Source: a virus
Length of the DNA stretch: 26,230 bases
Virus record (IMG/VR): IMGVR_UViG_3300029448_000366
Coordinates: 1 to 26,230 of that record
Strand: one strand, 5' to 3'
The translations under genes and the position numbers were made by a program. The notes under the pieces were generated by a model. The model was not told where the DNA came from. It saw nothing but the letters and a program-made list of their open reading frames with translations, and did not search any database. Numbering within the stretch: position 1 is the first letter of the stretch; each line of letters opens with the position of its first letter. This document shows positions 1-25,664 of the stretch, one piece after another.

Positions 1-93
1 TGTAACGATAGCTACTATGTTTTGTATTGATAATCCAAACTTTGCGTTTTGTAGATTATCTACCAATTGTTCTGCGTCTACTTGTTTCGCCAT
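1..93 (-). CDS. Partial CDS, N-terminal 31 residues of an unknown protein
   Basis: The reading frame starts at ATG (93-91) and stays open to the window edge, so only the first 31 residues are visible, beginning MAKQVDAEQLVDNLQ. A strong Shine-Dalgarno AAGGAGA lies at 107-101, seven bases before the ATG, which supports this start. It is the last gene in the window of the minus-strand unit holding the T9SS cargo and PorV-like genes, and follows the 11-residue Cys peptide by 16 bases. The visible part is a short amphipathic, probably helical segment, too short to assign to a family. The call as a gene rests on the start and ribosome binding site; the function is unknown. Confidence 0.65.
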   Translation of the reverse strand, partial: MAKQVDAEQLVDNLQNAKFGLSIQNIVAIVT

Positions 94-155: not shown

Positions 156-287
156 CTATTTATGATAATTAATAATTTTAAATCTACTGTCTATCCAACA
201 TTTTCCATAATACAATATACCTAACCATATTGTAAACAATACTCCGTCAAAGTATCCTATTGAATTCCATATTTCAACGATATCCAT
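156..287 (-). CDS. 43-residue putative single-pass membrane protein
   Basis: The ATG (287-285) overlaps the TAA stop of the PorV-like gene (289-287) as TAATG, so translation is probably coupled; no independent Shine-Dalgarno is visible. The product begins MDIVEIWNSIGYFDG. It has one hydrophobic stretch at residues 15-27 (VLFTIWLGILYYG), then a charged/polar tail (CWIDSRFKIINYHK), consistent with one membrane span and a cytoplasmic basic end. No family is recognised. Coupling to the PorV-like gene suggests co-expression at the envelope. Roles such as accessory lysis or exclusion peptide are possible, with no direct evidence for either. Confidence 0.55.
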   Translation of the reverse strand: MDIVEIWNSIGYFDGVLFTIWLGILYYGKCWIDSRFKIINYHK

Positions 288-1141
288 TATAAGTCAAACC
301 CAAATGAAATCATTAAAGTTTCGTTGTGGAAACTATCTGTATTGTAATAATATGCTAATGATAAATCTACAATACCTGCGTCAATACTACCACCTAATGT
401 GATATAATCAACTTCAAATTCTGATTCTGTGTAGTATCCTAATTTAAAACTTGCGATACCTAAGTCGTATTGTCCACCTAATCCGATTGAATTATAATCT
501 TCAAACACTTTAACATCTGATGCTAATGTGAAGTTTCCAAACTTCTGTCCAACACCAATACCTACTGACATAGGTAAATTAAGTGATTGGTCTAAAAATT
601 TAGTTTCACCACCGACATCTTTTAATACAATACCGACTGATGTATTACCGAACTCTTTGTAAGCACCTAAGTCAAATCCATAATTCATATCAATATCTAA
701 ATCATCAATAAAACTATGATTGTATAGATTTAATCTTGCTCCAAACATCCAGTCCTTGATTTGAAAACCATACCCACCACTTAATCTAAATGATGCGGAT
801 TCAAAATCTCCAAGTATAATACCACCTTGGTCTGCTTGTGTTTGTTCACCATAGTTAAAGTAAAATAATTCACTTGACCAACCTAAGTCTGATGTGTATA
901 GAATACTTTGGTATCCCATATCATCTGTTAGGTTTGGTAACCAATCTACATATGATATTTCTTGGTGTGATTCTCTTAGTCCTGCAAACGCTGGATTATG
1001 AAATACATTTTTCACATCTGCGTGTGCTATACCGACATTACCCATACCGGCACTATTTACACTTGGATTAAGTGTAAAGACATTGTTTGCTTGTGCAAAT
1101 AATGTTCCTGTTAATATTAATAAACTTAATAGTTTTTTCAT
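287..1141 (-). CDS. PorV/PorQ-family outer-membrane beta-barrel (T9SS-associated)
   Basis: This 284-residue protein starts with a signal peptide (MKKLLSLLILTGTLFAQA). A mature N terminus follows with the PorV/PorQ pattern SAGMGNVGIAHADVKNVFHNPA at about residues 30-51: small residues, then Met-Gly, then an Asn-Pro-Ala turn. The rest alternates hydrophobic and polar residues in amphipathic strands rich in Gly and aromatics and ends in an aromatic strand (SFGFDL), as outer-membrane barrels do. PorV is the T9SS shuttle that carries cargo from the translocon to the attachment complex; PorQ is its paralogue, and the sequence alone does not tell them apart. The start has AAGGAG five bases upstream. 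The gene follows the T9SS cargo gene by nine bases, so the two form a cargo/acceptor pair. A generic outer-membrane porin of the same superfamily is the alternative. Confidence 0.75.
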   Translation of the reverse strand: MKKLLSLLILTGTLFAQANNVFTLNPSVNSAGMGNVGIAHADVKNVFHNPAFAGLRESHQEISYVDWLPNLTDDMGYQSILYTSDLGWSSELFYFNYGEQTQADQGGIILGDFESASFRLSGGYGFQIKDWMFGARLNLYNHSFIDDLDIDMNYGFDLGAYKEFGNTSVGIVLKDVGGETKFLDQSLNLPMSVGIGVGQKFGNFTLASDVKVFEDYNSIGLGGQYDLGIASFKLGYYTESEFEVDYITLGGSIDAGIVDLSLAYYYNTDSFHNETLMISFGFDL

Positions 1142-1150
1142 AATTACTCC

Positions 1151-4081
1151 TTATTTAATAATTGTAAATTTCTTAGATTTAATTTTGTTTTCAGTTTCCA
1201 TTACGAATAGATAAACACCAGATTCTAATTCTTGGTATCCACCAAAACCTTCACCTATCGCGTCTGGTAAATCTGAGAAAGTGTATGTGTGCATTCCGTC
1301 GTTAACGACTTCATCTAATAAAGTTCCAACCTTTTGACCATTAACATTATAAATACTAATTGATACTTGTCCTGTTGACTCCATATAGAATTGGAAGTTA
1401 ATTGAGTTATGTTCACTATCATTATATGGATTTGGATAAACATAAGTCATCTCGTCTTCACTTGGTTGTCCACCACCAAATGCCCAAAACTTATTCCATA
1501 TTCTAATCTTACCACTTTGTCTTTGCATTAGTAAGTCATCACCTGCTGGATTACCTGCATTAGCTTTACCTACAAATTGTAAGTCTGCTTCTGTCCACTC
1601 TTGATTATTGTTTTCGTTTAACCTTGAGTTAAATACCAATTGTAATCCAACCAACTCTTCAGTCAAATAATATTCTTCTGGTGAATTGTTTGGTGAGTTT
1701 TCTAATGCTCCAAATGAAATTACTTTATATCCCTCTTCGTCTATTTCACTTTCGTTTAGATAAGTCATCCAAGGTCCTGGTAAAAGTCCTGTTTGAGCGT
1801 CAATAAATTGAAGTTGTTCTTCTTTGTATCTAACTTCAAACTCAAATCCTGCTACCTTAGTTGGTAGTCCTGTTATTTCATCTAAACTTGGTGTAATGGT
1901 TAAAGGAACTACAACTTGATTACCCATTTGAACTTTAACACTTCCGTCATCTGGTAATGATAAACTAACACCTTGTGTGTTGATTATACTTCTACTACTT
2001 CCGTCGTAAGTGTTGTTTGTATTGGTGTATGTCCAAGCACTTGGTGCGTCATCACAATCTGCGTTTACACAAGTGTCGTTCCAAGAATTTTCACCTGCTT
2101 CTCCGTTTTGAACCGTGTGTGTATCCCAACGATAGTATGTTGCTCCTGTGTATGCGTCTTGATATCCGTCTCCATTTTGTTCTTGAACCTTTGTTCCTGA
2201 TAAATTCATATCACCAGTAAAGTAAAGTGCTACATCATCTGCTGTGTAGTCTGGATTTACATCTCCGTCTGTTGTTACATCTGGGTCATCAAATGTTGAT
2301 GTTCCACCCAACACTACTACTTGTAAAGTATCATTACCTGTTTGGACATCATCCATCATTGGATTTAACCAAATAACTCCACCTGCGTCTTGTGTTAAAA
2401 CATCTGTTTCTTGGTCTAAGTCGTCGTCCCAAAATGCCGTGAACTCTCTTCTTTGTTTAGTGTCACCCCCTCTAAGTGCTTGATAGTAATTAAGAGTTTC
2501 TGCATTTCCGTTTGATTTTAAGTTGTCAATACTTGACCATTGTTGATAAGTGTTTCCATTAACGTGTGTATATGATGTTGAAAATACTCCACTTGTATAT
2601 GCCCATATAAAGTAAGCGTCATTTAATTGAAACAAGTCATCTCCGTCTACATCACCAATCAAATAAGCACTTGGTGAATCTACATTGATATCACTTTCGT
2701 TTACAAATTTGTTTGATTGAAAATTGAATGCTGCGATTGCGTCATTAATGTTTGTAATCGCTCCTCTATCTAATTCTAATTGTGTATGTTGACCAATGTC
2801 GTCATCTGCGTTTGGTGGCCAGAACGATACACGATAAGTATTGTTTCTTGGTAATTGAATATTGTAATATCCATTTTTATCTGTGTAGGTGTAATCAAAA
2901 TAAGATACTCCTAAAAATCCTTTACCTGGTAATGCTTGGTCTGCAAATGTTGTTGTTCCGTTTGTATCGGTCATTTTCAAATAGTAGTATGTTCCATTTG
3001 TATCTCCGATAACATCATCAGATAAATCTTCATCTGCTGTGTTTGAATCATCTGCCACATCTTCAATATCATACCAATTAGAAAATGGTGTATTATCATC
3101 TACATCTGGATTGTCTTCATCTAATTCAAATACAACTTTCCAATAAGGATAAGTTTTCTGAACAAATGTATCATCATCTACTCCGTCACTATCTGTGTCG
3201 GTTTTCTCTCCAATGTATCTACCGAAACCTTCAATATCAACAAGTTTTGGGTGTAGAGTAATGTCTCCTCTTGCACCACCATTGTTAGTTGAATCTGTTC
3301 CCCAATTTCCGTCAATATAAACTTTATAGTCTAATAGATAATCATCACTTACATAAGTATAATATCCTGTGTTTCCACTATAATATGTTGGTATTCTAAA
3401 TGAGTGTGGTTGATAATTATCAGCTACATCATTGATTCTAAATTGTAATTTTAATACTTGTTTTTCAACTCCATTACCACCACCAAATGTGTAGTCTGGT
3501 GTTCCATCTGAGTTATCATCAACTCCGTGAGATACCATAGTAATTCTTAACCAATCATAATCTGAATCAACTGCTGATTGTTCATTACCATTACTTTGAA
3601 TACTATCCGTATATCCTACATTAGAAAAGTAAACTACTTCAAAAGAATAATCTGCACCTGAACTTTCATCACCTTCAGTCCAACCTGATATATGTGAACC
3701 TTTGACTACTCGTGAGTTTCCTTGACTCCAAGCATTGATTGATGTTTCTTGATTGGTTCCGTCGTTTTCCACCCAAGTAATTAAATCATTGTCAAATGCA
3801 ATATCAAATCTAACTGATGTAATATCTTGACCTACATCATCAAGAGTGACTTCTATTTCTAAAACGTCATCTCTCCAAGAATCAAAATTATTGTTTAGAT
3901 AAGCTGGTTGGTCTTTATCATCTGCAAGAAAATCTTCTAAATTAACTGTTTCTTGAGCTTTCCACCAATATTCTGGTGTGGACCAATTACCTATTTGTTT
4001 AACTCTTATGATTGGACTTTGTGCAAAGACCATTCCAAACATAACTGCTGTCATAACCGTATTTTTTATAAAACGAAACAT
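1151..4081 (-). CDS. Secreted multidomain protein with T9SS C-terminal sorting domain, cohesin-like and dockerin-like segments
   Basis: The 976-residue protein begins with a signal peptide (MFRFIKNTVMTAVMFGMVFAQ). Asp-rich calcium-site-like repeats follow, for example DTDSDGVDDD near residue 295. Next come a carboxypeptidase-regulatory-like beta segment (DKNGYYNIQLPRNNTYRVSF, near 405-425) and a dockerin-like pair at about 435-495 (INDAIAAF, then GDVDGDDLFQLNDAYFIW). A cohesin-like beta-sandwich spans about 710-840, with VQMGNQVVVPL, FEFEVRYKEEQLQF and VISFGALENS. The last ~95 residues are a type A T9SS sorting domain: YVYPNPYND, VSISIYNVNGQKVGTL, ESGVYLFVMETENKIKSKKF. In known systems this domain routes a protein through the type IX translocon to the cell surface. 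GGAG lies seven bases before the ATG. The gene sits directly after phage tail genes and shares an upstream element with them. The cargo's own activity is unknown; no catalytic domain was recognised. Confidence 0.85.
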   Translation of the reverse strand: MFRFIKNTVMTAVMFGMVFAQSPIIRVKQIGNWSTPEYWWKAQETVNLEDFLADDKDQPAYLNNNFDSWRDDVLEIEVTLDDVGQDITSVRFDIAFDNDLITWVENDGTNQETSINAWSQGNSRVVKGSHISGWTEGDESSGADYSFEVVYFSNVGYTDSIQSNGNEQSAVDSDYDWLRITMVSHGVDDNSDGTPDYTFGGGNGVEKQVLKLQFRINDVADNYQPHSFRIPTYYSGNTGYYTYVSDDYLLDYKVYIDGNWGTDSTNNGGARGDITLHPKLVDIEGFGRYIGEKTDTDSDGVDDDTFVQKTYPYWKVVFELDEDNPDVDDNTPFSNWYDIEDVADDSNTADEDLSDDVIGDTNGTYYYLKMTDTNGTTTFADQALPGKGFLGVSYFDYTYTDKNGYYNIQLPRNNTYRVSFWPPNADDDIGQHTQLELDRGAITNINDAIAAFNFQSNKFVNESDINVDSPSAYLIGDVDGDDLFQLNDAYFIWAYTSGVFSTSYTHVNGNTYQQWSSIDNLKSNGNAETLNYYQALRGGDTKQRREFTAFWDDDLDQETDVLTQDAGGVIWLNPMMDDVQTGNDTLQVVVLGGTSTFDDPDVTTDGDVNPDYTADDVALYFTGDMNLSGTKVQEQNGDGYQDAYTGATYYRWDTHTVQNGEAGENSWNDTCVNADCDDAPSAWTYTNTNNTYDGSSRSIINTQGVSLSLPDDGSVKVQMGNQVVVPLTITPSLDEITGLPTKVAGFEFEVRYKEEQLQFIDAQTGLLPGPWMTYLNESEIDEEGYKVISFGALENSPNNSPEEYYLTEELVGLQLVFNSRLNENNNQEWTEADLQFVGKANAGNPAGDDLLMQRQSGKIRIWNKFWAFGGGQPSEDEMTYVYPNPYNDSEHNSINFQFYMESTGQVSISIYNVNGQKVGTLLDEVVNDGMHTYTFSDLPDAIGEGFGGYQELESGVYLFVMETENKIKSKKFTIIK

Positions 4082-4100
4082 TGTTTTCTCCGTTGGTTTA

Positions 4101-21582: not shown

Positions 21583-22907
21583 TTTTCAATAACCTCGTAT
21601 CTATTTTTTGTTAATCTTATATCTTTTTCATTTCTCAATCTATTTCTATATGGTGTCCATTTTATTCTTAATCCCCAACCACCCATATGTTCAATTATAT
21701 CTTTTTTTGTAACTGATTTTCTTCTTCTTATAAACTTAACTATTTTATCATAGGATTCAGTTTTAGAAATAGTTTTTAAATCTTCTATCGTTGACCAATT
21801 ATCAAACCAGCTCAATACTCTACCACTCCATTTAAAGTCTGGTAATAGTGGATTTAAATAGTCTTTTGCCTCTTCTCTGACATTTGGATTATCTAACATA
21901 TTTTCTATCGTTGATAAGAAATCTTTTTCTTCATACAATAATGGATAATCTTTTCCAACCATTTCTGGATAACATAATTTATTTGGTAATACATAAGGAA
22001 CACCTTGACTTAATCCGTCTGTTGTAGATATGGACCAAGCACTATAAGTTTTAAAACACCCAACACCCATATGCATTTTACGAACAAAGTTTAGATATTC
22101 TTCTCTACTGGATAACTTAACTCTTTCGGCATAAGGTCTGTCAAGAGTTGTTAATGTTGTAAAGACTTTAAAGTCTTGTCTTGTTTTATATAACTCGTCC
22201 ATTTGTTCTACGAACCAACTATAACCAGTATAATCATTATCTCTATGATTGAATAAAATTGTTTTAGGTTCATACTCGTGGTCTGGTGAAACATCATCAA
22301 TACCAAGATAGTGTGGTTGAATAATCTTTTCTAATTTACCAACTTGTTTATTATTTAAAAGTTCCTTACTTTTTTCAATAGTAAATTCTTTTAACCATTC
22401 TGAATTAACACCACACTCTTCCATTTCTAATACACCCAATAAATTCTGTGATAGCATTGTTGGTGTATAGTTTGAGTTTTCTTTTACTTCAAACCAATGT
22501 GAATAACCAATAATCTTAGGTGATAGATTTGTAGAGTTCTTAAATAAATTACTTAATGCTAAAGTTTGTTCTGGTAAATGTGAGTATACAATATCATACT
22601 CCTCATTTCTCCAATCAATAACTTTTAATATTTCATCAGCGTTAAAGTGTGTTCTCATTTTGTTCGGATAACTTGGCATACTGATTATCAATTGTTCTGT
22701 GTTTTCAAATTGTAAACTCTTGACATGCTTTGATGTTAGTATTGTCCAATGTATGTCGTGACGAACTTTATTTAATTCATTGATAACATTTCTCAACACC
22801 ACGACATAAGAGTCTTTTTCTAAGTCTTTCTGAAAAGTTTCGTTTGGATATACGAGTATTCTATACTTGTATGCTTTGTCTTGATTGTATTCAATGAAAC
22901 TATTCAC
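21579..22907 (-). CDS. GT-B-like glycosyltransferase with C-terminal winged-helix-like tail
   Basis: The 442-residue protein begins at GTG (22907-22905), overlapping the stop of the nuclease/ATPase gene; no ATG occurs before the first Rossmann strand (YRILVYPNET), so the GTG start is the best. A central linker leads to the nucleotide-sugar half, with ILFNHRDNDYTGYSWFVEQM at about 219-238. Near 283-340 is the acceptor-side block MGVGCFKTYSAWSISTTDGL, then SQGVPYVLPNKLCYPEMVG, like the family-4 type donor site. The last ~60 residues (YDKIVKFIRRRKSVTKKDII, then EHMGGWGLRIKWTPYRNRLR) look like a winged helix. Such a tail suggests nucleic acid binding, so the acceptor may be phage DNA, as for T4 alpha- and beta-glucosyltransferases. 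Donor and acceptor are unknown. Confidence 0.65.
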   Translation of the reverse strand: MNSFIEYNQDKAYKYRILVYPNETFQKDLEKDSYVVVLRNVINELNKVRHDIHWTILTSKHVKSLQFENTEQLIISMPSYPNKMRTHFNADEILKVIDWRNEEYDIVYSHLPEQTLALSNLFKNSTNLSPKIIGYSHWFEVKENSNYTPTMLSQNLLGVLEMEECGVNSEWLKEFTIEKSKELLNNKQVGKLEKIIQPHYLGIDDVSPDHEYEPKTILFNHRDNDYTGYSWFVEQMDELYKTRQDFKVFTTLTTLDRPYAERVKLSSREEYLNFVRKMHMGVGCFKTYSAWSISTTDGLSQGVPYVLPNKLCYPEMVGKDYPLLYEEKDFLSTIENMLDNPNVREEAKDYLNPLLPDFKWSGRVLSWFDNWSTIEDLKTISKTESYDKIVKFIRRRKSVTKKDIIEHMGGWGLRIKWTPYRNRLRNEKDIRLTKNRYEVIEK

Positions 22908-24474
22908 TTCTTTTTACAACCTTATGATTAAGAATATTGTCAAATATAATATTAATATCAAGAATTTTCTTCCACATAGCCATAGCTGAAGTTCCACTTG
23001 GTGTCAATCTTTGAGCTACTAAAATAATTTGGTCAGCTCCTATTTCAGCTGCGTATCCAGCAGCTTGTGAAACATCCTGTCCTCTTATTTCTTCTTTTTT
23101 AGCTTCAACAACTATTGTTTTGTTTCTACCAGTAACTAAGATATCTGGTCTACCAATGTTAAGTTCAGTTTCTATTGAAACTTGTTCATCAAATTCATCT
23201 AATGAAACTCCCCACTCTTGTCTTAAAAGGGCATTTTCTTTAATAACTCGTTTATACTCATCACGAACGTCGTGATTTTCTCCTATGACCTGTGTGCCAA
23301 CTTTAGAACGCCTCCTAAATCCGTGCTCTTTCAACCAATCCTTAACCACTCCAATCATTTCTTTTGACTCATCTTTTGTCATATCAATTCCCGATTTCAT
23401 CATAGTTGGTGGAATACCCTTGATAAGTCTTACTTCAACCCATAAGTTTTCTGCTCTACTCGAAGGTGGAAATTGATTAAACATAAGAATCTTTCCGTCT
23501 TTCGAAGTGGTATCAATACCAGAAGATTTAAAGTTAATACCGGCTGTCTCTGATGACCAAGCATAAGGACCTTTTACTTCACCATAAACATTGTCAACCA
23601 ACTCTGGATTAGTTGAACCATAATACTTTTCAGCTGTTTGTGGATAAAGTTTTCTACCAGCGCTAATCTCCACTTCCCAACCCTTTCCAGCTTTACCTTT
23701 TAATATTTCAGTTCTTTCTGGTTCATTAGCACCCACATTTAATGTTGGGTCTAACATATTGTTTGGATTAGTCAGTAGTGGTCTGATTGATTGAACTGGA
23801 ATAATCTTTTTACCACTTTGTTGTATAAAATGAAATTTACATTTAAGTTTACCACTATCTATATAATCTGCGTATGTTGCTCCAATATAATTTAGACACT
23901 TTTCTAAAGTGGTAATTTTTTGTGGATACTGACCCGTAATATTAGATAGTTTTACTTCTGTTCCATACTCTCTATACTTATCATCCTTTTCTGATTTACT
24001 AAATGAAGCTTCTTTTTCAGATTCATCTTCAAGAGTAAAGTTTGGTATTAACTGATAAATCTTATCAGTTTCAGCTCTCGGTTTAGTAATTATTTCAAAG
24101 TTTTCTGCCAAAGCAAAAATGGCTGCTTTCATACCAGTTCCACTATAACTCAATAATTGTTTTCCTTTATTTACTTGTTTTCCCACTTGAATAATTTCAT
24201 TAAGATATTTTCCTGGGATACCAATTGAATCATCTATGATAGTAACTTGCTTTTTTGGAAGATTAATTATTACTTCTACATTTGTATTTCTGTCAAGTGT
24301 TAAAGTGTTGTCAATTAATTCTGTTATGTATTTCCACCAATCTAACTCTTGCCTAGCTAAAGCTTTATATAAACCCACGACTGGCACTGATTTTATATTA
24401 CCATCTGTAATTTTCCACTTACCCATTTTTTTTGCTTCACTTCTATCATTCATTCTTTTTACTTGTCTACTCAT
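22900..24474 (-). CDS. GHKL ATPase fused to a PD-(D/E)XK nuclease domain
   Basis: The ATG at 24474 is chosen: AGGAAG stands seven bases upstream and the previous stop is two bases away. A longer frame to 24522 would overlap the neighbour by 46 bases. Of 524 residues, the N-terminal part has the GHKL ATP site: N box E52-LI-D55-N56 in YITELIDNTL, G1 DDSIG (81-85) and G2 SGTGMK (111-116), as in MutL, Hsp90, gyrase B and MORC. The C-terminal part has a PD-(D/E)XK core: E435/E437, D444 in RPDILV, E457-A-K459 in VVEAKK, and Q470. Together this is an ATP-gated DNA clamp with a probable endonuclease. It overlaps the glycosyltransferase start. Roles could be replication/repair, host DNA attack, or anti-competitor defence. 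Confidence 0.75.
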   Translation of the reverse strand: MSRQVKRMNDRSEAKKMGKWKITDGNIKSVPVVGLYKALARQELDWWKYITELIDNTLTLDRNTNVEVIINLPKKQVTIIDDSIGIPGKYLNEIIQVGKQVNKGKQLLSYSGTGMKAAIFALAENFEIITKPRAETDKIYQLIPNFTLEDESEKEASFSKSEKDDKYREYGTEVKLSNITGQYPQKITTLEKCLNYIGATYADYIDSGKLKCKFHFIQQSGKKIIPVQSIRPLLTNPNNMLDPTLNVGANEPERTEILKGKAGKGWEVEISAGRKLYPQTAEKYYGSTNPELVDNVYGEVKGPYAWSSETAGINFKSSGIDTTSKDGKILMFNQFPPSSRAENLWVEVRLIKGIPPTMMKSGIDMTKDESKEMIGVVKDWLKEHGFRRRSKVGTQVIGENHDVRDEYKRVIKENALLRQEWGVSLDEFDEQVSIETELNIGRPDILVTGRNKTIVVEAKKEEIRGQDVSQAAGYAAEIGADQIILVAQRLTPSGTSAMAMWKKILDINIIFDNILNHKVVKRSE

Positions 24475-24476
24475 TT

Positions 24477-25664
24477 TTATCTTCCTATATCCTTTAAATA
24501 TTTTTCTTTTGCTTCTTCCCACGAGATGTTAATCATTCCGGAATAGAATAATTTCTCTGGTTTTATTTTGTTTTGTTCTAATAGTTTTTCATATCGTTTG
24601 ATTGCTTTTCTTTTCCACCAACTATCTATATACTCTATGTCTCTGTCAAACATATTTCTGATTACAAGTTGGTCTTCATTGATTTCACTTCTTAGAAATT
24701 CTTTTCCATTTTGATATATGTTAGCAAAATAACAACCTCGTTTAAATCCGTGTTCATACTTTGCTCTCTTGATATCTAACTCTTTATATATCATTTGAAT
24801 AATCTTTTGTTTAATACCTGTAACGGGTTGTCCAGTTTTAGAAGTAGTTACTTCATCATATCTTTCTCTGTTGTTATCTTTCAACCATTGATGCCATACA
24901 TCATAAAATTTATCATCTGGTTTTAAACTAATCTTACCTTTGGTTTCACCAAGAGTTTTCCATTGTGGTATTCCATTATACATTGAGTGAATACCATACA
25001 AAGCAGTAGTAGATATACCGACTAATGTTTGTCCATATAGTTTCTTCCAAGTATCACGAACTACTTTTGATGTAACCATTTGTGCTACTAACTTACCACC
25101 CAACATATTGAAACCTAATGGTTGAACACAACATATTGTAGTTCCGATTGCAGTGTGATTTAGTTTACCCTCTTTAAATTTATTTTCTTTGTTCCAACCG
25201 ATTAGTGTATCTCTAACTCCTAATGAAGTTACATCACTACCTAAACAAATCATACCTAATACTTTATTAGTTGATTTATCTCTAACATAAAATTTTACAT
25301 TACGGCCTGGATTAGCTGTGAACTCCATTGAGTGAATTAGTCTTCTTGTGATAATCCAATCCTCGTTTGCTTTCGCATTACCTTGTTCTACTGGTTCGAC
25401 GATTGGTTCTATTGAATTGATTTCTTGAATTGTAAGTTCTTTATTGAATATGTCTGTTGGTTGCCAGATAGTCTTTTCTAATCTATCAATTGTATCTGCT
25501 CTATCCATAAAGAATTGTGGGTCTTTATTGAACTCTTCCCACTTCTTCCACAAGACTGATTCTTGTACTGACATTTCTTTTAGAAAGTCCATATTGTCTA
25601 TGAACTTTTGTTTCTCTGCTTCGTAATTAAACTCAGCTTCTCCGAAAAAGTTTTCAAAACTCAT
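24477..25664 (-). CDS. DruA-like (DUF4338) protein
   Basis: The 395-residue protein has, at about residues 104-245, the pattern I know from DUF4338, the family of the Druantia antiphage protein DruA. The blocks are a VKFYVRD...LGMICLGSD core, then GVRDTLIGWNKE (149-160) matching the family RDxxIGW motif. After these come TAIGTTICCVQPLGFNMLGG (171-190), VVRDTWKKLYGQTLVGISTT (201-220) and ALYG. The N-terminal ~100 residues are helical and charged, and the C-terminal part (WWKRKAIKRYEKLLEQNKIK) is basic. The biochemical activity of the family is not settled to my knowledge. GAGG is six bases before the ATG and the previous stop abuts it. Phage carriage is notable since DruA is best known from host defence. 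The large DruE helicase is absent from this window. Confidence is moderate without a profile search. Confidence 0.55.
   Translation of the reverse strand: MSFENFFGEAEFNYEAEKQKFIDNMDFLKEMSVQESVLWKKWEEFNKDPQFFMDRADTIDRLEKTIWQPTDIFNKELTIQEINSIEPIVEPVEQGNAKANEDWIITRRLIHSMEFTANPGRNVKFYVRDKSTNKVLGMICLGSDVTSLGVRDTLIGWNKENKFKEGKLNHTAIGTTICCVQPLGFNMLGGKLVAQMVTSKVVRDTWKKLYGQTLVGISTTALYGIHSMYNGIPQWKTLGETKGKISLKPDDKFYDVWHQWLKDNNRERYDEVTTSKTGQPVTGIKQKIIQMIYKELDIKRAKYEHGFKRGCYFANIYQNGKEFLRSEINEDQLVIRNMFDRDIEYIDSWWKRKAIKRYEKLLEQNKIKPEKLFYSGMINISWEEAKEKYLKDIGR

Follow-up and report, generated by a model that had tools for sequence, protein, structure and literature searches.

Cargo proteins of the type IX secretion system (T9SS) have been reported on phages before. 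Phage-encoded T9SS cargo was described in Cryophage, with a proposed role in superinfection exclusion (Bellas et al. 2020, PMC7468147), and T9SS-domain proteins were found on crAss-like contigs (2019, PMC6949934). These two reports correct a first-pass annotation of the DNA studied here, a linear virus record of 26,230 bases (the window), which had held phage T9SS genes to be hardly described. As far as the Cryophage passage goes, type A sorting domains of the T9SS are found on genes of both that phage and the window phage; the Cryophage cargo consists of variable enzymes or PA14 proteins (endoglucanase, GH39), whereas the window phage has one conserved family, and the passage mentions no PorV-family partner, whereas the window lineage couples its cargo to a PorV-family gene (PMC7468147). 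The crAss-like T9SS proteins are likewise encoded on phage contigs, yet they lie near head genes, carry BACON repeats in one case and have no described partner (PMC6949934).

Cellular systems provide further points of comparison. Bacteroidota PorV and the phage barrel both belong to the PorV/PorQ family, have a FadL-like barrel and adjoin a protein with a C-terminal sorting domain (CTD) (8gl6, 6h3i; PMC5562754). However, the phage barrel is phage-encoded, has 284 residues against ~370-400 in Bacteroidota PorV, and scores far under the PorV equivalog cut-off. In the bacterial porU-porV pair, as in the phage pair, a CTD-bearing protein is directly followed by PorV, but the phage CTD protein, unlike PorU, has no C25 peptidase/sortase domain. 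The tandem layout also recalls type B cargo, whose cognate PorP/SprF shuttle is encoded immediately downstream and also fixes the final location of the cargo; in contrast, the phage pair joins a type A CTD to a PorV/PorQ-family partner (PMC12618676). Because phage T9SS cargo was reported earlier, the cargo alone is not new; what seems new is its conserved partner from the PorV family. Our search of the open-access literature gave no account of a PorV/PorQ-family gene in a phage, and a virus that pairs a member of a secretion-system outer-membrane family with a matching substrate is undescribed in the part of it that was searched.

A phage-encoded T9SS cargo protein

The cargo gene is read from the minus strand (Table 1); translation of the plus strand over the same interval gives many stops. 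By inspection, its product starts with a Sec-type signal peptide, MFRFIKNTVMTAVMFGMVFA, followed by QSPII, with a charged start, a hydrophobic core and an A/Q cleavage site, and the glutamine after this site is conserved across all aligned cargo homologues. At the other end of the protein, NCBIfam TIGR04183 matches residues 881-974 of 976 over model positions 1-71 of 72 (E=6.3e-9, 35.7 bits; curated cut-off, 23 bits), whereas Pfam PF18962 narrowly misses its cut-off (E=1.2e-5, 26 against 27 bits). The 976-residue protein with signal peptide and type A CTD that had been proposed from inspection is thereby confirmed. Seven strands are predicted within residues 877-974 (structure model, pLDDT ~35-76). 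TIGR04183 scores 23.4-35.6 bits in four diverged cargo homologues with bodies 57-66% identical, and the CTD is kept in all 57 complete cargo homologues from other viral contigs. With a CTD above the curated cut-off at its extreme C terminus, the protein is, as judged by profile, a T9SS type A cargo.

Profile searches of the cargo gave no C25 peptidase or NF033707 match, and the protein does not have the C25 domain ahead of the CTD by which a PorU sortase is recognized. Domain profile searches found no enzyme or catalytic domain in the cargo or in any family member searched, and PDB sequence searches returned only spurious matches to DARPin, Rpn8 and FtsZ.

Table 1. Features of the cargo-partner locus and its borders in the window
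Feature	Position	Strand	Basis
Start of small membrane/coiled-coil protein, ~135 aa in relatives, runs off window	1..93	-	full length in L015/L020
PorV/PorQ-family outer-membrane protein (partner), 284 aa	287..1141	-	NF033709 match and PorV fold
Partner signal peptide, residues 1-16, cleavage A16/Q17 (FA/QA)	within 287..1141	-	
Partner Shine-Dalgarno GGAG, inside 9-base gap past cargo stop	1147..1150	-	
Cargo gene, 976 aa, no known enzyme domain	1151..4081	-	ORF, TIGR04183 match, family in IMG/VR
Cargo type A sorting domain (CTD), residues 880-976	1154..1444	-	TIGR04183 match, predicted strands
Cargo cohesin-like beta-sandwich, residues ~703-865	1487..1975	-	Foldseek; range read off modelled strands
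Cargo dockerin/EF-hand-like calcium loop DVDGDDLFQLND, residues 477-488	2618..2653	-	nearly invariant in alignment
Cargo signal peptide, residues 1-20, cleavage A20/Q21, Q at +1	4022..4081	-	inspection
Cargo Shine-Dalgarno GGAG	4088..4091	-	motif before start codon
Two tail genes upstream of module, 329 and 342 aa	4131..6158	-	homologous to last structural genes of immuto and Mel-JY01

A PorV/PorQ-family gene directly behind the cargo

The partner gene starts nine bases downstream of the cargo stop. The PorV-family model NF033709 matches its product with 89.9 bits (E=2.2e-25), short of the cut-off of 90 by 0.1; close homologues score above this cut-off (103.3, 102.1, 100.7 and 95.1 bits), and two further homologues reach 80.5 and 82.2 bits. 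With the equivalog models, the window partner scores 44.9 bits for PorV (NF033710; cut-off 250, best homologue 61.8) and 65.5 bits for PorQ (NF033711; cut-off 220, best homologue 71). Since these scores are far under both equivalog cut-offs, the partner is, by profile, a diverged member of the PorV/PorQ family and an orthologue of neither PorV nor PorQ. Its structure model (pLDDT 70) finds PorV as the best PDB fold, with 8gl6_F at Z 24.6 over 253 residues and 6h3i_F at Z 24.0; FadL structures follow closely at Z 23.2. The first of these, 8gl6_F, is the PorV of the F. johnsoniae translocon in the RemA-CTD-bound complex. As modelled, the partner is a PorV-like (FadL-type) outer-membrane barrel. 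No PorV-like protein was found among the BFVD viral structure predictions, in which generic porins gave the best TM-score, 0.39. With this PorV/PorQ-family gene next door, which the first-pass annotation had overlooked, the lone cargo becomes a cargo with an outer-membrane partner.

Of 10 loci with the bacterial relatives closest to the phage barrel, 6 have the relative directly behind PorU, which is a CTD protein too, and one has the PorV-family gene behind an Ig-like adhesin that bears a type A CTD. A cellular parallel of the phage pair is seen in a bacterial genome (L075:1102-3617), where a PorV-family gene comes directly after the gene for an invasin-like adhesin with Ig repeats and a type A CTD.

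Conservation of the pair and selection

A cargo-body scan of IMG/VR revealed relatives on at least 133 contigs, with cargo identity down to about 44%; 80 were kept for analysis, and 57 of these hold complete cargo genes. The partner follows the cargo in 53 of the 57 (one partner being cut by the contig end), and the other four have at most 107 bases of contig remaining. In a second sample, collected by tail genes, the partner lies behind the cargo in 32 of 32 testable genes (23 distinct pairs), usually after 6-11 bases, and none of its 79 contigs has a partner without cargo; the two samples overlap, and their counts are not independent. An extra secreted protein of 132 residues, rich in His and Lys, is encoded between cargo and PorV-like gene in L020 (12970-13368) and also in L017.

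Both genes are under purifying selection, with pairwise dN/dS against the window of 0.10-0.27 (partner) and 0.20-0.34 (cargo). The cargo ORF is not a chance reading, because ORF and CTD recur in 57 of 57 homologues at a dN/dS of ~0.2-0.34. In the tail-gene sample, partner identity falls to 22% where the cargo stays at 51% or above. Such fast evolution would be odd for a protein bound to a conserved translocon, and it counts against a shuttle role of the partner.

No relatives of cargo or barrel were found in isolated phages (tblastn, 50,697 phage records). A profile search of genome contigs with the barrel alignment gave no cellular relatives, and with the cargo alignment the sole match was L043, a phage contig in a Flavobacteriaceae MAG. 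In the module region there was no promoter excess over shuffles, and no terminator-like site was found on the coding strand between tail gene, cargo and partner.

A proposed secretion module and its main alternative

We favour, with moderate confidence, the reading that the myovirus-like phage uses cargo and partner as a secretion module of two genes, in which a T9SS substrate and a dedicated shuttle/anchor place an adhesin on the infected cell. The host Sec system would export the cargo, with the signal peptide cut before glutamine, and the type A CTD would steer it through the host T9SS translocon (SprA/Sov). The phage PorV/PorQ-family barrel would take the CTD at the translocon, or hold it afterwards, and the cohesin-like, calcium-loop adhesin would end up on the surface of the infected cell. 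We infer translocation, the shuttle/anchor step and display from what was observed directly, i.e. the genes, domains, fold, coupling, selection and phage context. A dedicated shuttle/anchor is the most economical reading because of the tandem layout and the combination of a type A CTD with a PorV-family partner; type A CTDs are known to pass from the SprA translocon to PorV, which is needed as shuttle (PMC12618676).

The main rival holds that the cargo leaves via the host PorV and shares no more than the operon with the phage barrel, which would be an outer-membrane protein of another kind, e.g. a PorQ-like anchor, a FadL-like uptake channel or a receptor decoy. This would agree with F. johnsoniae, where the host PorV serves all type A CTDs (PMC12618676), with the near equality of the FadL and PorV Z scores, and with the equivalog scores, in which the window partner leans to PorQ and the L020 partner leans the opposite way (PorV 61.8, PorQ 57.1 bits). 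A separate barrel is nevertheless unlikely in our view, given that its coupling to a CTD protein is unbroken in 53 of 53 testable contigs and that a PorV-like gene without cargo is absent from the 79-contig tail-gene sample.

On the dedicated shuttle/anchor reading, infection probably gives the host cell a new surface coat, because a T9SS-tagged protein lies among tail genes with a relative of the carrier directly behind it; the surface dressing proposed in the first-pass annotation is plausible. Phages are known to alter host envelopes. The benefit is the least certain part: our first guess, superinfection exclusion or receptor masking, is possible but doubtful, and adhesion or aggregation would come second. 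The cargo-partner pair is compact and open to testing with the CTD-shuttle assays available in Flavobacterium johnsoniae, and a shuttle role of the barrel would bear on the specificity of PorV-type carriers for type A signals.

The cargo body

The loop GDVDGDDxFQLND is near-invariant in the aligned cargo homologues and, by motif reading, looks like a dockerin/EF-hand calcium site. The top Foldseek matches of the sandwich module are cohesins (4dh2_A, E 1.7e-7, TMt 0.69), at a local pLDDT of ~40-85; the model of the whole cargo is poor (pLDDT 39), and the parts outside the cohesin-like module and the CTD are too poor for interpretation. Residues 72-113, toward the N terminus, give a Pfam cohesin match that misses its cut-off. 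With a putative calcium loop, a cohesin-type sandwich and no enzyme domain found, the cargo reads as an adhesin or scaffold.

The cohesin-like module with the dockerin-like loop would also suit an auxiliary host function, in which the secreted cargo would collect nutrients, or hold enzymes or particles in place, during infection in the manner of a cellulosome. A match in three family members to fn3_3, a domain of polysaccharide lyases, points the same way. We consider this function improbable, as no member searched has a catalytic domain and cohesin folds are common in plain adhesins too.

The host

A T9SS-bearing host, as deduced in the first-pass annotation, is supported by the type A sorting domain on a phage gene, but the Bacteroidota host that it implied is doubtful. 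GGAG, GAGG or AGGA precedes the start codon in 13 of 19 window genes, all on the minus strand, against 22% in shuffles (p=1.6e-5); in Flavobacterium phage immuto, such Shine-Dalgarno sites are found in 1 of 37 genes. As the phage uses Shine-Dalgarno sites, which Bacteroidia ribosomes do not recognise (PMC9976891), a host within Bacteroidia is questionable. The secreted proteins inspected in these phages have glutamine after the cleavage site, i.e. the Bacteroidetes Q-rule, which is also found in some other FCB members (PMC5837995). A full-length, phage-encoded FCB-type GroEL on a sister contig (L083:15759-17387) is 63-70% identical to Bacteroidota GroEL, its top PDB match is a reconstructed FCB chaperonin, and it suggests an FCB host, no finer. 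Since glutamine at cleavage sites, an FCB-type GroEL and heavy Shine-Dalgarno use come together, the host is perhaps an FCB member outside Bacteroidia, with Marinimicrobia (SAR406) as first candidate; as many as 24 genes with Por sorting domains occur in genomes of this group (PMC5596340). L043 is a single MAG-binned contig that points to Flavobacteriaceae, a weak clue because bins often pick up stray viral contigs.

Taken as a whole, a phage lineage with its own T9SS shuttle and its one cargo, redirecting the translocon of an FCB host outside Bacteroidia, e.g. Marinimicrobia, to recoat the cell, is a plausible though tentative picture. Marinimicrobia are an abundant marine phylum that is rarely cultured, and to our knowledge their T9SS function and phages of this kind have hardly been studied. 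If they are the host, the module would offer a genetic handle on protein secretion there.

Phage context

The cargo begins 49 bases past the last gene of a run of tail genes, which includes a gp25-like baseplate gene (PF04965, E=1e-9) and a gp6-like baseplate wedge (phrog_219, E=2e-22; phrog_6 also matched). The order from baseplate to last tail gene is shared with Flavobacterium phage immuto and Microcystis phage Mel-JY01. By gene content, the window phage is a myovirus-like tailed phage, and the cargo lies directly downstream of phage tail genes, as first noted from the sequence. A tail-gene scan gave 80 loci, of which 79 were newly retrieved; 54 of these 79 carry the cargo at the same place, and many of the others end too early to show whether it is there.

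In immuto and Mel-JY01, the slot past the last shared tail gene holds fibre/spike genes or extra tail-protein copies, and no other receptor-binding protein was recognised within the window, as if the cargo were a structural virion adhesin (tail fibre) with an incidental C-terminal likeness. This is very unlikely: the cargo has a signal peptide with a conserved cleavage site, its CTD exceeds the curated cut-off and persists in every complete homologue, and it comes with a PorV-family partner, whereas phage tail proteins assemble in the cytoplasm. No T9SS tail was visible at the C termini examined in the slot proteins of immuto and Mel-JY01.

Cargo and barrel resemble host envelope genes, and the window stops just past them. 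That the contig end is a host fragment joined near position 4100, a chimera considered at first, is nevertheless refuted, as independent contigs, at least 133 with the cargo family, carry the cargo amid phage genes on both sides, the long ones running on into ferredoxin, primase and SbcC-like genes, while cargo codon usage is phage-like (r 0.975) and 247 Bacteroidota genomes hold no cargo-body homologue except on one phage contig inside a MAG.

Beyond the module, longer sister contigs continue with genes for a small membrane protein and a ferredoxin, and for several secreted proteins, a primase and a protein resembling SbcC. The phage-encoded ferredoxin adjoining the module is of the two-cluster 4Fe-4S type (L020:14865-15152; PF00037, E 2e-11). 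Secreted envelope proteins follow in L020 (15157-18073), with equivalents in L015, L024 and L012; the L020 run consists of a lipoprotein with a weak CsgG match, two secreted proteins of 328 aa (beta-rich) and 171 aa, and a membrane-anchored protein of 238 aa. A curli (CsgG) reading of these proteins was rejected, the single Pfam match being sub-threshold (E 0.018) and not repeated in homologues. Elsewhere in the window, positions 22900-24522 encode a 540-aa protein with, by eye, a GHKL-type ATPase and a nuclease-like C terminus; its only good match is phrog_20521, of unknown function. A related group of contigs (L145, L152, L157, L161 and L174) has a different secreted module in the cargo slot; the first four, which lack the cargo-partner pair, have in this slot a secreted protein of 420 aa, probably of the outer membrane, and also encode a secreted protein resembling thioredoxin.
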